Source: Motilibacter deserti
GTDB taxonomy: Bacteria; Actinomycetota; Actinomycetes; Motilibacterales; Motilibacteraceae
Direction of reading: 5' to 3'
Length of the DNA stretch: 64,000 nt
NCBI RefSeq assembly: GCF_011250635.1
Contig: NZ_JAANNP010000001.1
Coordinates: forward strand, 962,933 to 1,026,932
The first letter of the stretch is position 1. Each line of letters starts with the position of its first letter. A model generated the notes under the pieces. It saw only the letters and a list, made by a program, of their open reading frames with translations. It made no database searches and was not told the origin of the DNA. Position numbers and translations under genes: made by a program. Shown here piece after piece: positions 53,587 through 60,817 of this stretch.

Positions 53587-54558
53587 TCAGGACGCGAACG
53601 TCTTGCGGTACGCCGCCGGCGACGTCTGCAGCACGCGTCGGAAGTGCTGCCGGAAGGTCACCACGCTCTCGAAGCCCGTCGCGCCCGCGACCGCCTCCAC
53701 GCTCATCGTGCCGGCCTCGAGCAGCGGCAGGCTCGCCTGCACCCGCTGCGCGACGAGCCACCGCATCGGCGAGGTGCCCAGCTGCCGGAGGAAATGGCGG
53801 GAGTAGCTCCGGGGGGACATCGCGGCGCGGGCGGCGAGGTCGGCAAGCGAGATCGGCGAAGCGAGGTTCTGCAGTGCCCATTCGACGCTGCGCGCGACGG
53901 CGCCGTCCTCGGGGCTCGCGGTCACGGGGGCCTCGATGAACTGCGCCTGCCCGCCCTCCCGGTGGGCCGGGACGACGAGCCGGCGGGCCACGGCGTTCGC
54001 GACCGTCGCGCCGTGGTCGAGGCGGATGAGGTGCAGGCAGAGATCGATGCCGGCCGCACTCCCAGCGCTGGTGAAGACGTTCGCGTCCTCGGTGTAGAGC
54101 ACGTCGGCGTCCACCAGCACGCGCGGGAAGCGCTCGCGCAGCAGGCCGGCGTAGCGCCAGTGCGTCGTCGCCCGCCGGCCGTCGAGCAGGCCGGCCTGCG
54201 CCAAGGCGAAGGCGCCCGAGCAGATCGACACCACCCGTGCGCCGCGCGCATGGGCCGCCCGCAGGACGGCCGACAGCTCGTCCGGTACGTCGTCATGCAC
54301 GTCCGCCACGCCCGGGACGATCACGGTGCCGGCCCGCGCGACGGCCTCGAGGCCGTACGGCGCCTCGACCCGGAGCCCACCTACGGTCCGGACGGCTTCG
54401 CCCCGAGGCACACAGACGCTCAGCGAGTACCAGGGGACGTCGAGCTCGGGCCGCGGCAGCCCGAACGCCTCGATCACGATGGCGCTCTCGAAGGGCGACA
54501 TGCCGTCGAAGAGGACCAGCGCGACCTCGTGCGGCGGTGGCAGGACCCGGAGGGGCAT
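53587..54558 (-). CDS. AraC-family regulator with GATase1-like domain
   Basis: 323 aa. The N-terminal DJ-1/PfpI-like domain (VALVLFDGMSPFESAIVIEAFG; SICSGAFALAQAGLLDGRRATTHW with the nucleophile-position Cys) is followed by AraC HTH (ISLADLAARAAMSPRSYSRHFLRQLGTSPMRWLVAQRVQ and VEAVAGATGFESVVTFRQHFRRVLQTSPAAYRKTF). FtrA/GlxA-type regulator. Divergent from a rhodanese gene, which it may control. The 111-bp gap holds both promoters. Confidence 0.93.
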   Translation of the reverse strand: MPLRVLPPPHEVALVLFDGMSPFESAIVIEAFGLPRPELDVPWYSLSVCVPRGEAVRTVGGLRVEAPYGLEAVARAGTVIVPGVADVHDDVPDELSAVLRAAHARGARVVSICSGAFALAQAGLLDGRRATTHWRYAGLLRERFPRVLVDADVLYTEDANVFTSAGSAAGIDLCLHLIRLDHGATVANAVARRLVVPAHREGGQAQFIEAPVTASPEDGAVARSVEWALQNLASPISLADLAARAAMSPRSYSRHFLRQLGTSPMRWLVAQRVQASLPLLEAGTMSVEAVAGATGFESVVTFRQHFRRVLQTSPAAYRKTFAS

Positions 54559-54669
54559 GGCTCGAGCGTAGTGGCGAGAACCCATCGGTACGTGGCGTTC
54601 GCGCCACTCGCCGGCGTGGCCGCCGTGCCGCAGCCTGAAGTGGACACAGAACCGAGCATCGGAGGGCCG

Positions 54670-55104
54670 ATGAACGCGACCGAGCAGGCGATCGAGCACT
54701 TCACCCGGCGGCTGCAGCACGAGACCGACGTCTCCGACGTCGCGGAGCGCCTGGCTTCCGGTGATCCAGGCCTGGTCCTCGTCGACGTCCGTGACGACGC
54801 CTCGTGGGCGCAGGGCCGGATCGCCGGCGCGCTCCACCTGCCGCGGCGCGAGATCGCGGCCCGCGCCCGGGCGCTCGTCCCCGGGGGCGCGGAGGTCGTG
54901 ACGTACTGCTGGGGGCCCGGCTGCAACGGTGCAACGAAAGGCGCACTGGCGTTCGCCGAACTCGGCTACCGGGTCAAGGAGATGCTCGGCGGCTACGAGT
55001 ACTGGGTGCGCGAAGGGCTCGAGACCGAGTCGGCCGCAGGGCCTCGCCGGCTCGAGCCCGACGCGCTGACGGTCGCTATCGGGTCGCCGGCGTGCGCCTG
55101 CTGA
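54670..55104 (+). CDS. Rhodanese-like protein
   Basis: 144-aa single rhodanese domain: VLVDVRDDASWAQGRIAGALHLPRREIAARA and the active loop TYCWGPGCNGATKGALAFAELGY with Cys80 as likely persulfide-carrying residue and a second Cys85. An LGGYEYWVREG segment follows. Two more Cys end the protein (ACAC). GGAGG lies 5 nt before ATG. Its end overlaps the convergent MFS-Usp gene by 29 bp. Often found opposite an AraC/GlxA regulator as here. Confidence 0.92.
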   Translation: MNATEQAIEHFTRRLQHETDVSDVAERLASGDPGLVLVDVRDDASWAQGRIAGALHLPRREIAARARALVPGGAEVVTYCWGPGCNGATKGALAFAELGYRVKEMLGGYEYWVREGLETESAAGPRRLEPDALTVAIGSPACAC

Positions 55105-56818
55105 CCCCGGGCGCGCCAGCGGTGAGCGCCGGCTCGGGCCGCACGAGCACGACGGTGCACTCCGCCTCCCGGCTCAGCGTCGCCGTCGCACTGCCCTCCG
55201 CGAGCACGCCGAGGCCAGAGTGCGACGGGGCGCCGACCGCCACCGCACGGGCCGCCCGCCGGTTGGCGTGCTCGGCGATGGTGTGCCCGACGGCGGCGTG
55301 GCCGCCGACGCTACGCAGCACGAACCCCCGGGCCGGGACGCGCTCCTCGCCCAGCCGGGCGAGCAGGGCGCTCACCGTCGTGCGGGCCTGCTCCAGCGTC
55401 TCGCGCTCGGTCGCCACGTCCTCGACCACGGCGGTCTCGTGCACGTGCAGCACCTCGAGCGGGCGGTCCACGGCCTTGGCGATGCGCACCGCCGCGTCGA
55501 GGACGGCGCCCGCGTCGGGACGGTCGTCGAGCGCGACCACCACCGGCCCGGCGGCGTCGGCCCACCCGGCGCCCTGACCCACCCCCTGGCCGACCTGGAC
55601 CAGGCTGGGCGCGACGTCCGGCCGCGGCTGCGCCACCGGCGCCTCTGCGCCGCGCTCGGCCTCCTCGAGCAGCCGGTGCCCGGTGGCCAGCGCTCCGATC
55701 GCGACGAGGAAGGCGCCGGCCCCGACGTAGAACGGCACGTGCAGCGACCAGTGGTCCGCGAGCTTGCCCGCGGCGTACGGGGCGAGGCCGCCGCCGATGA
55801 AGCGCAGGAAGCCGTACGACGAGGAGGCGATCGGGCGCTCGACGGGCGAGACCTCCATGACCGCCTGGGTCATGAGGGTGTTGTTGATGCCGATGAACGC
55901 GCCGGACACGACGGTCGCGATGATGACCGTGCGCGGGGACTCGACGTCGGCGGCGATGACGGCCAGCACGACCGCGAGGGCGGTGAAGACGGCGTACATG
56001 CTGCGGGCGGTGCCGAAACGGGCCTGCATCCGCGGCGCGACGACGACGCTGAAGAGCGCGACGAGCAGGCCCCAGCCGAAGAACACCAGGCCGAGCTTGT
56101 GGGCGTCGAGCTCCATCGGGTAGGGCGCATAGCCCAGCAGCGTGAAGAAGCCCCAGTTGTAGCAGAGCGCGGCGAGTCCCATCGTGAGCAGGCCGCGGTG
56201 GCGCAGCGCCTTGACCGGCGCGAGGACCGACGTCGGCCGGGCCGGGCGCGGTGTGGTCGGGACCAGCACGGCGGTCGCGACCAGCGCGAGCAGCATCAGC
56301 ACCGAGACGCCGAAGAACGGGCCGCGCCAGGAGACGTCGCCGAGCAGGCCGCCGAGGAGCGGTCCGACCGCGATGCCCAGCCCGAGCGCGGCCTCGTACA
56401 GGATGATCGCGCCGGCGAAGCCGCCGCTCGCGGACGCCACGATCACCGCGAGGGACGTCGCGATGAAGAGCGCGTTGCCGAGGCCCCAACCGGCCCGGAA
56501 GCCCACGATCCCGTCGACGCTGCCGGACGCGCCGGCGAGGGCCGCGAAGACGACGATGACGGCCAGCCCGGCGATCAGCGTCTTCTTGGCGCCGATGCGG
56601 CTGGACACCGCGCCGACGAACAGCATCGCGACGGCGGTCACCACGAGGTAGCTCGTGAAGAGCAGCGACACCTGGCTCGGCGTCGCGTCCAGCTCCTCGC
56701 TGATGGCCGGCAGGATCGGGTCGACCAGGCCGATGCCCATGAACGAGATGACGCAGGCGAAGGCCACGGCCCACACGGCGCGCGGCTGCCTGAAGGTGTT
56801 CGCAGAGACTGCGCTCAC
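55076..56818 (-). CDS. MFS transporter fused to universal stress protein domain
   Basis: 580 aa. Residues 1-395 are a 12-TM MFS drug-efflux-type transporter (FMGIGLVDPILPAISEELDATPSQVSLLFTSYLV, VGAVSSRIGAKKTLI). A linker leads to a C-terminal UspA domain (about 430-565): GPVVVALDDRPDAGAVLDAAVRIAKAVDRPLEVLHVHE and the nucleotide-loop-like GAPSHSGLGVLAEGSATATL. The fusion suggests ATP/stress-linked control of efflux. GTG start with GGAG 6 nt before. It lies 32 bp after the MarR gene, probably one operon. Confidence 0.9.
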   Translation of the reverse strand: MSAVSANTFRQPRAVWAVAFACVISFMGIGLVDPILPAISEELDATPSQVSLLFTSYLVVTAVAMLFVGAVSSRIGAKKTLIAGLAVIVVFAALAGASGSVDGIVGFRAGWGLGNALFIATSLAVIVASASGGFAGAIILYEAALGLGIAVGPLLGGLLGDVSWRGPFFGVSVLMLLALVATAVLVPTTPRPARPTSVLAPVKALRHRGLLTMGLAALCYNWGFFTLLGYAPYPMELDAHKLGLVFFGWGLLVALFSVVVAPRMQARFGTARSMYAVFTALAVVLAVIAADVESPRTVIIATVVSGAFIGINNTLMTQAVMEVSPVERPIASSSYGFLRFIGGGLAPYAAGKLADHWSLHVPFYVGAGAFLVAIGALATGHRLLEEAERGAEAPVAQPRPDVAPSLVQVGQGVGQGAGWADAAGPVVVALDDRPDAGAVLDAAVRIAKAVDRPLEVLHVHETAVVEDVATERETLEQARTTVSALLARLGEERVPARGFVLRSVGGHAAVGHTIAEHANRRAARAVAVGAPSHSGLGVLAEGSATATLSREAECTVVLVRPEPALTAGAPGVSRRTPATR

Positions 56819-56850
56819 GAGAACTCCACTACTCCTGATTCAATCTTCAC

Positions 56851-57255
56851 CTATTGGGAGACGGCCAGCAGCCGGCGCAGCGCAGGCAGCGCGGCGGCGA
56901 CGGCGCGGCGGTCGTCGTCGTCGAGCCGGTCCAAGAGCGCGGACAGGGCGCGTACGCGCTCCTCGCGCCGGGCGGCGAGCACCTCGGCGCCGGCCGGGGT
57001 CAGCGCGGTCAGGACGGACCGCCCGTCCTCCGGGCTCGGGTGGCGGTCGACGAAGCCGTCGCGCTCGAGCCGGCCGACCAGCTGGCTCATGGCCGGCTGG
57101 GTCACGCCTTCGGCGGCGGCCAGGTCGGACACCCGGCTCGGGCCCTCGCGGGACAGCCGGGCGAGGGTCGCCGCGGCGGTCAGGCTCAGCCCGGACTGCG
57201 GGACGAGCCGGCGGGCCACCGCGAGCAGCCGCTCCAGCACGTCCCCCGCTTGCAT
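56851..57255 (-). CDS. MarR-family transcriptional regulator
   Basis: 134 aa. Winged helix: LSLTAAATLARLSREGPSRVSDLAAAEGVTQPAMSQLVGRLERDGFVDRHPSPEDGRSVLTALTPAG, with the wing D-x-R-S. It likely represses itself and the following efflux gene. ATG 57255 with GAGG upstream fits the promoter at 57278-57306. GTG 57276 would lie almost on the -10 box and is unlikely. Confidence 0.9.
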   Translation of the reverse strand: MQAGDVLERLLAVARRLVPQSGLSLTAAATLARLSREGPSRVSDLAAAEGVTQPAMSQLVGRLERDGFVDRHPSPEDGRSVLTALTPAGAEVLAARREERVRALSALLDRLDDDDRRAVAAALPALRRLLAVSQ

Positions 57256-57277
57256 ATCAACCGTTGCCTCAAGCACC

Positions 57278-57306
57278 TGTCTAGGTTACATCATGTCCTT
57301 ATGCAA
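57278..57306 (-). promoter_or_regulatory. Promoter of the MarR-MFS operon
   Basis: On the minus strand, -35 TTGCAT (57306-57301), 17-nt spacer, -10 TAGACA (57283-57278), in an AT-richer region. TTGCATA (57250-57256) and TATGCAA (57300-57306) also form a 7-bp inverted repeat that could be the MarR operator. Confidence 0.5.
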
Positions 57307-57333
57307 CTCAGGAGCGTCTCGGGATGCGAAAAA

Positions 57334-57366
57334 GGCGCCGCACCTCCCATCAGGAGGTGCGGCGCC
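57334..57366 (-). terminator. Rho-independent terminator of the manB-SIS operon
   Basis: Perfect 14-bp stem GGCGCCGCACCTCC / GGAGGTGCGGCGCC with CATCA loop. On the minus strand it is followed by TTTTT, 31 bp after the SIS gene stop. Confidence 0.93.
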
Positions 57367-57397
57367 CGGTCGTGCGGTCAGGCGGGCGCGGCCGTGC

Positions 57398-58558
57398 TCA
57401 ACGCGCCGCGTCGCCGATGCGGGCCTTCAGCTCGACGATCGCCGGGATGGGCGAGGGGTCGACGCCAGTCGCCAGGGCGAGGTAGGTGCTCGCGAAGTCA
57501 CCCAGGCCCACCAGGGAGGCGAGCCGCTCGACGACCGTGGCCCCTTCGGCCCGCAGGACCGTCGTCGCGACGCCCCGCCCCTGCGCGATCGCCTCGACGG
57601 CGTCGGCGCGGGCGGCGGTGCGCGGGTGCTCCTCGGAGTCGCGCAGGAGGACCGCCCGCAGCCGCAGCGACGGCGGCTCCTCGAACGGGTCGCGGAACAG
57701 GTCGTCGGCGCCGTCGGCCGAGGAGGAGGCGAGCGGCCCGTCGAGGGCGACCACCTGGTTGTGGCCGGCCTCGGGCAGCGCGCCGGAGACCGCCGGGAGC
57801 TTGGCGTTCTCGGCGAGCTGGGAGGCCATGCGGTACGCCGCGGCCCCTGCGACCCCGCTGCTGCCCCAGATCATGGGCAGGGTCCCGGCGAGCGACAGCG
57901 CGAGGTCCTTGGCCGGGTTCTCCCCCACCGGCTGCCGCGGGCCGCAGCGCTCGGCGAGGCTGTCCAGCAGAGCCGCGGTGGCCTCCAGCGACTCCTCGGG
58001 GACCGCGGCCAGCCCGAGCACGTCGGCGAGGACGAGCAGCGGGACAGACAGCGACCAGAAGCTCGCCCGCGGCAGGCGCCCGCCCGCGTCGACGGGCAGG
58101 TGCACCCCGCGGGCGCGCTCGCCGGCCGCCGCGAGCCGGCTGCCCGCCGCCCCGACGGTGACGACGCGCGACCCGCGCCGCGCCGCCTCCTCGACCACGA
58201 GGAGCGTCTCCTCCGTCGACCCGCTGCACGACACGCCGACCACGAGGTCGAGCGGCCCCACCCAGCCGGGCAGCACCAGGTCGTGGACCGGCAGCACCTG
58301 CACCGGGCAGCTCGGGCCGCTGACGGCCGCGAGGACGTCGGCGGCGATGCCGGAGCCGCCGACCCCCACGGCGACCACCGAGCGCGGGCGGCCGTCCTCG
58401 GCAACGGCCGCGACCCCGGCCTCGCGGGCGGCGCGGGCCGCGGCGCGTACCTGGGCGCCGGAGCTGGCGCAGGCCTGCAGCATCCCGCCCGAGTCCGCGC
58501 CGGCCAGCCCTTCGGGGTCGCTCAGCAGGGCGTCGTCGGCGACCAGCGCTCCCGTCAC
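57398..58558 (-). CDS. SIS domain protein (phosphoglucose/phosphomannose isomerase-like)
   Basis: 386 aa with two SIS-like halves: VAVGVGGSGIAADVLAAVSGPS, VGVSCSGSTEETLLVVEEAARRGSRVVTV and LPMIWGSSGVAGAAAYRMASQLAENAKLPAVSGALPEAGHNQVV (Glu and His of the isomerase active site). Probably interconverts mannose/fructose/glucose-6-phosphates, delivering mannose-6-phosphate to ManB for GDP-mannose and cell-envelope glycans. Encoded 13 bp after the Trm112 gene; ends the operon. Confidence 0.88.
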   Translation of the reverse strand: MTGALVADDALLSDPEGLAGADSGGMLQACASSGAQVRAAARAAREAGVAAVAEDGRPRSVVAVGVGGSGIAADVLAAVSGPSCPVQVLPVHDLVLPGWVGPLDLVVGVSCSGSTEETLLVVEEAARRGSRVVTVGAAGSRLAAAGERARGVHLPVDAGGRLPRASFWSLSVPLLVLADVLGLAAVPEESLEATAALLDSLAERCGPRQPVGENPAKDLALSLAGTLPMIWGSSGVAGAAAYRMASQLAENAKLPAVSGALPEAGHNQVVALDGPLASSSADGADDLFRDPFEEPPSLRLRAVLLRDSEEHPRTAARADAVEAIAQGRGVATTVLRAEGATVVERLASLVGLGDFASTYLALATGVDPSPIPAIVELKARIGDAAR

Positions 58559-58571
58559 TTGGGGGCTCCCC

Positions 58572-58847
58572 TCAGGCAGGGTCCGGGCCCGGGGCCGGGC
58601 CGTCCGTCCCGATTGTGTCGGTCGCGCCGCCCGGGCCGCCCGCGGGCCGCGCTTCGTCGAGCAGCAGCACCGGGATGCCGTCGCGCACCGGGAACGCGAG
58701 GCCGCAGGAGGCCCCGGTGCAGACCAGCTCCGACCGCTCGGCGTCCACGCGCAGCGGCGAGCGGTCCTGCGGGCAGGCGAGGACCTCGAGGAGCCAGCCG
58801 TCGAGCCCGAGCGCCTCGGCGCCGGCCGCGTCCGGGCCGGCGGTCAC
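58572..58847 (-). CDS. Trm112 family protein
   Basis: 91-aa zinc-ribbon-like protein: [49 protein letters not shown] with Cys ligands CPxD and CxxxxC. Family members stabilise methyltransferases or stay uncharacterised in actinobacteria. GTG 58847 overlaps the manB stop (GTGA). The end (about 70-91) is disordered. Confidence 0.9.
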
Positions 58848-60214
58848 GACTGCGCCCGCACGATGGCGAGGACCTCGTCGCGCAGCGCCTCCATGGCCGG
58901 CCGGTCCGCCGCCTCGACATTGAGCCGGAGCAGCGGCTCGGTGTTGGACTTGCGCAGGTTGAACCACCAGTCCGCGTGCGTGAACGTCAGCCCGTCGAGC
59001 CGGTCGACCTCGACGCCCTCGCGCGAGCCGAACTCCTTCTCGACGGCCGCGCTGCGCTCGTCGGCGTCGGCGACCGTGCTGTTGACCTCGCCGGAGGCGC
59101 TGTAGCGGGTGTAGGCCGCCAGCAGCTGCGACAGCGTCGAGCCGGCGGGTGTCTCGCCGAGCGCGGCAAGCGTGTGCAGGGCCGCGAGCATGCCGGAGTC
59201 GGCGCGCCAGAACTCGCGGAAGTAGAAGTGGCCCGAGTGCTCCCCGCCGAAGACGGCGCCGGTCTCGGCCATGTCCGCCTTGATGAACGAGTGGCCGACG
59301 CGCGACCGGAACGGCGTGCCGCCGTTCTCGCGGACGATCTCCGGGACCGAGCGCGAGGTGATCAGGTTGTGGATGACCGTCGCGCCCGGCTCCTTGGCCA
59401 GCTCGCGGACCGCCACCAGCGAGGTGATCGTCGACGGCGAGACGAGCTCGCCGCGCTCGTCGACGACGAAGCAGCGGTCGGCGTCGCCGTCGAACGCGAG
59501 GCCGATGTCCGCCCCGTGCTCGCGGACCGCGGCCTGCAGGTCGACGAGGTTCTCCGGCTCGATCGGGTTGGCCTCGTGGTTCGGGAAGTTGCCGTCGAGC
59601 TCGAAGTACATCGGCACGACCTCGAACGGCAGCCCCTCGAACACCACCGGCGCGGTGTGGCCGGCCATGCCGTTGCCGGCGTCGACCACGACCTTGAGCG
59701 GGCGGGCGCCCGACAGGTCGACGAGCTTCTTGAGGTGGTCGGCGTAGTCCTGCAGCACGTCGCGCTTCTCGACGGTGCCGCGCGTCGCGACGGGCTCCGG
59801 CAGCCCGTTGTCGAGGTAGTCGCTCACGAGCTCGGCGATGTCGCGCAGGCCCGACTCCTGGCCCACCGGCGTCGCGCCCGCACGGCACATCTTGATGCCG
59901 TTGTACTTGGCCGGGTTGTGCGAGGCGGTGAACATCGCTCCCGCCCGGTCCAACGAGCCCGAGGCGAAGTAGAGCTGGTCGGTCGACGCGAGGCCGATGT
60001 CGATGACCGACGCGCCCTGGCTCGTCATTCCGTCGGCGAACGCTGCCGCCAGCCCCGGCGACGACGGCCGCATGTCCCGCCCGATCACGGCCCGGTCCAC
60101 GCCGAGCACCTTGACGAACGCCACCCCCACCGCGCGGGCCAGCTCCTCGGTGACGTCGGTGCCCACCAGCCCGCGGACGTCGTATGCCTTGATGATCTTC
60201 GACAGGTCTGCCAC
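58844..60214 (-). CDS. manB: Phosphomannomutase/phosphoglucomutase
   Basis: 456-aa alpha-D-phosphohexomutase converting mannose-6-P to mannose-1-P (and possibly glucose phosphates). Phosphoserine loop [11 protein letters not shown], Mg loop DGDADRC, sugar loop [10 protein letters not shown] and phosphate loop [13 protein letters not shown] 60214 ([18 protein letters not shown]) is the usual family start; the frame to 60271 is longer but unlikely. First of manB-Trm112-SIS. Supplies GDP-mannose for lipoglycans and glycoproteins. Confidence 0.96.
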
Positions 60215-60280
60215 AGGCGGGAGCCTATCTGCGCGCGGGACGGCGCCGACCGAGCGCGGGCGCTCCTGCACGCGGCAGGG

Positions 60281-60652
60281 TCAGCTGTCCGGGCTGCGCA
60301 GCACGCGCAGGTGGCCGCGGCGCCCCTGCGTCGGCGGGGCGGCGAACGTCCCCGTGCGCTGGTCCTGGTCGTGGGGCAGCGGGCGGGCGGCCTCGCGCAC
60401 GGCGTCCGCGAGCGCCTCGATGTCGTCGCTCGTTGGCTCCGGGTCGGCCGCGCCGACGGCGAGCCGGACGACCTCCCAGCCGCGCGGAGCGGTCAGCCGC
60501 TCGGCGTGCTCGGCGCAGAGGTCGTAGCAGTGCGGCTCGGCGTAGGTCGCCAAGGGGCCGAGGACCGCGGTGGAGTCGGCGTAGACGTAGGTCAACGTCG
60601 CCACGGCAGGACGCCCGCAGGCAGTGCGGGTGCAACGGCGGGCGGGTCTCAC
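60281..60652 (-). CDS. DUF3499 family protein
   Basis: 123-aa actinobacterial protein: RRCTRTACGRPAVATLTYVYADSTAVLGPLATYAEPHCYDLCAEHAERLTAPRGWEVVRL. CTRTAC and HCYDLCAEH are a likely zinc site. It regularly sits between manB and the zincin-like gene. GTG 60652. A disordered C-terminus follows. Function unknown. Confidence 0.93.
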   Translation of the reverse strand: MRPARRCTRTACGRPAVATLTYVYADSTAVLGPLATYAEPHCYDLCAEHAERLTAPRGWEVVRLAVGAADPEPTSDDIEALADAVREAARPLPHDQDQRTGTFAAPPTQGRRGHLRVLRSPDS

Positions 60653-60817
60653 AGCCGCTCACCTTAAAGCCCGGCACCGACGAACCCGCCGATCCGCGCC
60701 GCCTGCGACGTCGTGTCGCGCCCGGACGGCGCAACGCTGCAGGAACCCGGCGCCCCGCTCGCGCGTTCTGGCCCGTCCTGCGCGCCCTGCCCACGCCGGT
60801 CGGGGATACTGCCGGGC

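Follow-up and report, generated by a model that had tools for sequence, protein, structure and literature searches.

The MFS-Usp gene and its putative MarR-controlled unit

The window analysed in this study is a stretch of 64,000 nucleotides from the genome of Motilibacter deserti. It contains a gene that combines a carrier of the MFS with a universal stress protein (Usp) domain in a single polypeptide and that follows a regulator gene of the MarR family. The features of the locus are:

55076..56818, (-): MFS-Usp fusion gene of 580 aa with a GTG start and a GGAG just 5' of it (from reading of the sequence)
55646..56818, (-): MFS domain, about residues 1-391, with about 12 TM and motif C GLGIAVGPLLGG (MFS_1 match and motif C; helices of low confidence)
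55550..55645, (-): linker, about residues 392-423, under weak constraint in relatives (median dN/dS 0.45)
55139..55546, (-): Usp domain, residues 425-560 (Pfam Usp and fold model)
55190..55234, (-): degenerate nucleotide loop GAPSHSGLGVLAEGS, residues 529-543, of the form G-2X-S-9X-G-S (motif survey and sequence reading)
56851..57276, (-): MarR-family regulator gene (Pfam MarR 3e-14), 32 nucleotides upstream of the MFS-Usp gene
57287..57305, (-): inverted repeat resembling an operator, TGCATAA-GGACA-TGATGTA, ahead of the MarR gene, with 0 occurrences in 100 shuffles
57334..57365, (-): hairpin rich in GC with a T run behind it, a likely terminator (sequence reading)

A rhodanese-domain gene at 54670-55104 (+; Pfam 2.3e-14) is convergent with the MFS-Usp gene, with a 29 bp overlap of their ends, and 53587-54837 (-) encodes an AraC-type regulator carrying a DJ-1/PfpI domain.

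The 580-residue reading frame matches MFS_1 of Pfam with an E-value of 5.5e-44 (150.9 bits compared to a cut-off of 33.4) in two stretches, the best of which covers residues 19-232, and Usp at residues 425-560 with an E-value of 6.4e-13 (49.9 bits compared to a cut-off of 24). Together with motif C, these matches bear out the assignment of an MFS exporter type and of a Usp domain on the same polypeptide by the earlier note, the latter at the C-terminus. Since the same two-domain reading frame recurs in many genera and its Usp part is under purifying selection, chance is excluded and the MFS-type transporter with a C-terminal Usp is confirmed as a genuine architecture.

In a single-sequence model of the full protein, which is of low confidence (mean pLDDT 46), the carrier contains 12 helices, and its hydropathy shows 14 overlapping hydrophobic windows. 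Motif C, which we take to be the antiporter motif of TM5 in MFS drug:H+ antiporters, is present in all 113 family members checked; motif A, in the pattern used in the analysis, is absent from 24 of them. Among the best 25 of 45 NCBIfam matches, none of the efflux families (Bcr/CflA, TcmA, Tet and others) reaches its curated cut-off, with efflux_Bcr_CflA scoring 50.3 bits compared to 200.9. By its sequence, the carrier would be of the MFS_1 drug:H+ antiporter type (12-TM, DHA1-like), with proton-coupled drug export as its predicted activity. The nearest named relative of the MFS part that we have seen appears to be MdrL, an MFS multidrug pump of Listeria monocytogenes, where 140 of 378 aligned residues are identical (37%; 36% by tblastn). 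MdrL shares with the carrier of the window the presence of one adjoining regulator gene, but it is a protein of 397 residues without Usp and the adjoining gene is of the PadR family instead of MarR.

The MarR gene was correctly placed beside the transporter by the earlier note, as it immediately precedes the transporter gene and has the same orientation. The hairpin and T run are located between this MarR-MFS pair and an upstream phosphoglucose-isomerase-type gene, and the likely terminator thus suggests that the pair is probably a transcription unit of its own. Across 115 loci (L068 and L121 being set aside), a MarR gene on the same strand and within 400 nucleotides upstream accompanies 67 of 76 fused and 30 of 39 unfused carriers; it is divergent in one locus, and 17 loci, some with little upstream DNA, show no MarR match. 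Among 3409 ORFs surveyed from loci L026-L105, the MarR gene alone recurs beside the carrier from genus to genus (67 loci in 20 genera). A conserved neighbourhood in Actinomycetota that would name a substrate was rejected, the other recurrent clusters being lineage-local or, apparently, antisense shadow ORFs.

The regions upstream of MarR share a palindrome. CATAA-N5-TTATG occurs exactly in 46 of 97 such regions and with at most one mismatch in 65, compared to 0.1 expected from shuffles of two-letter blocks, in a set where Streptomyces is over-represented; if the spacer is changed from 5 to 4 or 6, these numbers drop to 0 and 1 at one mismatch. The 65 regions span 19 genera or unnamed groups, and the consensus TRCATAA-N5-TTATGYA is conserved across genera at fused and unfused loci alike. 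In the genome of M. deserti, 57287-57305 is the single site of the searched variant. The conserved palindrome before MarR and its single genomic occurrence make the unit look self-regulated and local. Palindromes of the TTGC...GCAA type were considered and found to be weak, with the best variant present in 9 of 97 regions at two mismatches compared to 0.65 expected and most others at or below chance. From its sequence features, the MarR-MFS pair would constitute a two-gene self-regulated unit, for which binding by MarR and release by a ligand are predicted. A similar arrangement is found for YvmA of Bacillus subtilis, which we take to be an MFS carrier and compare by description only, and whose gene is in an operon with the MarR-type gene yvmB. 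In this yvmBA operon, YvmB represses at a palindrome, as described in parts of a published account (PMC4992311). The YvmB box GTTYMMYMGTAAAC is unlike the TRCATAA-N5-TTATGYA consensus of the family investigated here, and a link to YvmB and pulcherriminic acid was rejected due to this difference in the operator.

Distribution and origin of the fusion

When the fusion protein was used to scan species genomes, the best 80 of 557 loci comprised 65 fused and 15 unfused copies, all with actinobacterial titles. The unfused copies include L081 from Streptomyces sp. CB01373, where the Usp is located in another frame; the frame shift in this locus follows an apparent repeated stretch and could be an assembly error. 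Since the best 80 of 557 loci favour proteins that resemble the one in the window, an even sample of the class was also searched. The MFS part was detected at E <= 1e-60 in 111 of 393 genomes of this sample, 12 of them with a Usp, where eleven matches extend past residue 520 and the twelfth (G206, locus L121) carries its Usp further along; the sequence was opened for the 30 best loci. A search of 197 class genomes with a Usp profile recovered ten fused copies, plus one located where a contig ends, and the scores drop from 142 bits to 75 for the next Usps. In a wider sample of the phylum, the profile matched 3 of 296 genomes at 1e-25. L140, a candidate stand-alone relative of the fused Usp, was rejected, as it lies close to one end of its contig of 5.6 kb and may be a cut fusion. 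In the family of M. deserti, two of five genomes (G000 and G003) contain the intact fusion, G002 and G004 contain none, and the same-genus genome G001 holds an eroded, syntenic remnant (L016) that has lost portions of both MFS and Usp and shows no MarR match. This remnant retains the DJ-1/AraC-type neighbour.

The MFS-Usp proteins are thus a minority, yet an old and widespread actinobacterial family. Their presumed rarity is correct for the fraction of genomes (12 of 393 in the class) but has to be qualified in view of the breadth of the family, which also has a counterpart in Vibrio. In the open-licence PMC literature, we found no description of an MFS carrier fused to a Usp.

A tree of the MFS part, with 112 rows after omission of duplicates and of rows under 380 aa, shows a strong clustering of fused and unfused copies, with 6 label changes compared to 31 in shuffles. 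One of the six is L081 with its broken frame, and well-supported branches force at least two. The tree fits one gain with losses as well as several gains. Unfused copies are found at its base and within Streptomyces (L080, L115), and the position of the latter makes a loss of the Usp likely in this genus.

The counterparts in Vibrio are encoded on plasmids (WP_065742995.1, WP_043011616.1). Both domains are detected by Pfam in the same order as in the protein of the window, with 36% identity over the full length, 160 of 375 residues being identical in the MFS part (43%) and 36 of 128 in the Usp (28%). Unlike in the window, no MarR gene is found within the stretches read around the Vibrio genes. 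The Vibrio Usps score 12-19 bits with the actinobacterial Usp profile, as does a generic Usp, whereas fused actinobacterial copies score 100-215 bits. With such a generic score, the Vibrio protein has probably arisen by a separate event, in which a carrier of this family acquired a Usp for a second time. One copy in V. tubiashii is without Usp and the frame of one copy in V. coralliilyticus is broken; L164 was rejected as a natural split gene since its frame break falls inside the MFS part. In five Vibrio plasmid loci (L132, L134, L163, L164 and L165), the MFS or MFS-Usp gene is accompanied by an adjoining ParB gene. A tryptophanase is found beside it in four of the five (the short stretch of L134 does not reach it), and a permease for aromatic amino acids in all except L163. 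These neighbours hint, though no more than that, at a substrate of the aromatic or indole type in Vibrio.

Fold, selection and nucleotide loop of the Usp tail

The model of the Usp domain displays the alpha/beta fold of Usps with a pLDDT of 87. It is uncertain mainly at the chain end and at the nucleotide loop, the least confident inner part, with values below 50 at residues 119-123. Its best structural match is the Archaeoglobus fulgidus Usp 6hcd (Z 16.9, rmsd 2.7 over 128 residues), and further close matches are 3qtb (A. fulgidus Usp with dAMP, Z 16.7), 5ahw (the mycobacterial Usp MSMEG_3811 with cAMP, Z 16.1) and 7ji4 (KdpD Usp with c-di-AMP, Z 13.9). The chain of 3qtb is also the top PDB match of a profile of the fused Usps (2.2e-9); a phmmer search of the PDB with the single Usp sequence retrieved no Usp, whereas the profile did. 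A consensus of the fused Usps contains an ETAVVEE stretch after beta2. Elsewhere in the 5.0-Mb genome, the only Usp matches are three ORFs, normal or short in length, and a kinase that we label KdpD-like from reading its sequence.

In the ATP motif of Usps, the first Gly contacts the ribose, and the second Gly and the Ser/Thr contact the phosphate, as described in parts of PMC8214093. The loops of 74 fused Usps, counted without two duplicates (L068 and L121), the truncated L053 and the remnant L016, were compared with ATP-binding references and with the canonical Usp of the same genome. None of the 74 contains the strict loop G-2X-G-9X-G-[S/T]. The first Gly is retained in 71, the second in none, with Pro at its position in 51, and 52 combine the first Gly, the third Gly and the Ser. 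The Asp of beta1 is present in the Usp of the window but in only 10 of the 74 overall. The nucleotide-loop-like motif described previously thus stands with respect to the first Gly, the third Gly and the Ser of GAPSHSGLGVLAEGS but not with respect to the second Gly, which is replaced by Ser. An absence of nucleotide-binding residues in all homologues, named by the earlier note as what would refute its interpretation, applies to the strict ATP loop and does not extend to the first Gly or to the Gly, Gly and Ser combination. The second Gly is also missing in the chain of 3qtb (IGIRKRSPTGKLIFGS).

Among the alternatives to the interpretation that we favour below, gating of the carrier by a Usp that binds AMP/dAMP, cAMP or c-di-AMP as its signal, instead of ATP, is one that we regard as rather unlikely. 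The wide retention of the first Gly, the Gly, Gly and Ser combination and the beta1 Asp in the window make AMP-type binding conceivable, and the closest folds include Usps bound to dAMP, cAMP and c-di-AMP (3qtb, 5ahw, 7ji4), although likeness in fold does not show a ligand. The Usps of KdpD are also part of a membrane protein and, according to parts of PMC8214093, have lost the ATP motif yet retained the first Gly. In addition, secretion of c-di-AMP by MFS multidrug pumps is reported in parts of PMC10243994, where work on Listeria and Bacillus is cited. However, KdpD is a histidine kinase and not a carrier, and its c-di-AMP motif [AGC]xSxSxxN[YF] is found in 0 of the 74 fused Usps; with both published motifs absent, c-di-AMP binding of the KdpD type was rejected. 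A more specific version, where a re-tooled Usp would read AMP or cAMP to open or shut the MFS carrier, as a second-messenger switch built at least twice, in Actinomycetota and in Vibrio, is a speculation of low probability.

A true ATP sensor that would gate efflux by energy state, as assumed when efflux was linked to ATP in the earlier note, appears improbable. In its favour, the Usp of the window contains the beta1 Asp, the first and third Gly and the Ser, and TTHA0350 binds ATP although alignment failed to reveal the motif in it, as stated in parts of PMC12159084. In contrast, the second Gly, assigned to phosphate contact in PMC8214093, is lost in 74 of 74 fused Usps, few of which hold the beta1 Asp, whereas the stand-alone Usp L001 of the same genome keeps the full ATP motif. 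The loop survey does not bear out a link of efflux to ATP and has led us to reject ATP sensing as the leading explanation. Such sensing by the fused Usp is unlikely in light of the altered loop.

The chance is similarly small that the tail is a passive leftover of the fusion event without a role. It is consistent with this possibility that most members of the family are devoid of the Usp, which has likely been lost in L080 and L115 within Streptomyces, and that the linker is under loose constraint. However, in 16 hand-chosen pairs of close relatives, the median dN/dS amounts to 0.09 for the MFS part, 0.20 for the Usp (range 0.05-0.59) and 0.45 for the linker, illustrating that the Usp is constrained, less than the carrier but more than the linker. 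Also, a motif specific to the family, GDHAA[AT]G, precedes beta4 in 43 of 74 fused Usps. Finally, a spurious long frame or a frame fusion in GC-rich DNA, which does yield shadow ORFs such as the 1815-codon open frame 55220-60667(+) antisense to several real genes, is already refuted by the homologous two-domain ORFs in many genera and by Pfam matches above cut-off for both domains.

A proposed regulatory tail on a putative drug/metabolite antiporter

Building on the observed anatomy, conservation and distribution of the family, we propose with moderate confidence, and as a prediction of its transport, ligand and regulation, that the protein exports drugs or metabolites in exchange for H+ under the control of MarR, and that its C-terminal Usp has a regulatory role other than canonical ATP sensing. 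MarR would repress both genes at the palindrome until it is displaced by a small molecule, and the MFS part would then expel this molecule, or a relative of it, in exchange for H+. The Usp would follow the last TM helix on a flexible linker and reside in the cytosol, from where it might adjust the carrier by gating, dimerisation or the docking of a partner, either via protein contacts or via a ligand other than ATP, for instance AMP or cAMP. Such a role would parallel the action of stand-alone Usps on other transporters. The Usp Rv2623 acts on the transporter Rv1747, according to parts of PMC5549992, and the Usp TeaD is paired with the transporter TeaABC, as indicated by the titles of a paper and a structure. 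In both cases, the Usp and the transporter are separate proteins instead of a fusion, and Rv2623 contains the canonical ATP loop, unlike the fused Usps. Secondary transporters with an attached Usp are known from archaea, where Na+/H+ exchangers and amino acid permeases bear such domains; these likewise combine a carrier with a Usp but belong to other superfamilies, and this account (parts of PMC12159084) contains no occurrence of MFS. Several observations count against this interpretation, namely that the Usp is dispensable for the carrier, since most members of this MFS family are without it, that the same-genus genome G001 holds nothing but an eroded remnant, that the nucleotide loop is modelled with low confidence, and that the motif A pattern is absent from 24 of 113 members.

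The same carrier, with and without a cytosolic Usp, is found in close relatives and behind the same operator-like site, which constitutes a natural pairing. Control of MFS multidrug pumps is usually ascribed to transcription only. The pairing of fused and unfused carriers offers a way to examine if an MFS pump, once synthesised, can be regulated by a soluble sensor domain. If the Usp were to bind a nucleotide other than ATP, this would establish a new tie between efflux and the metabolic state.
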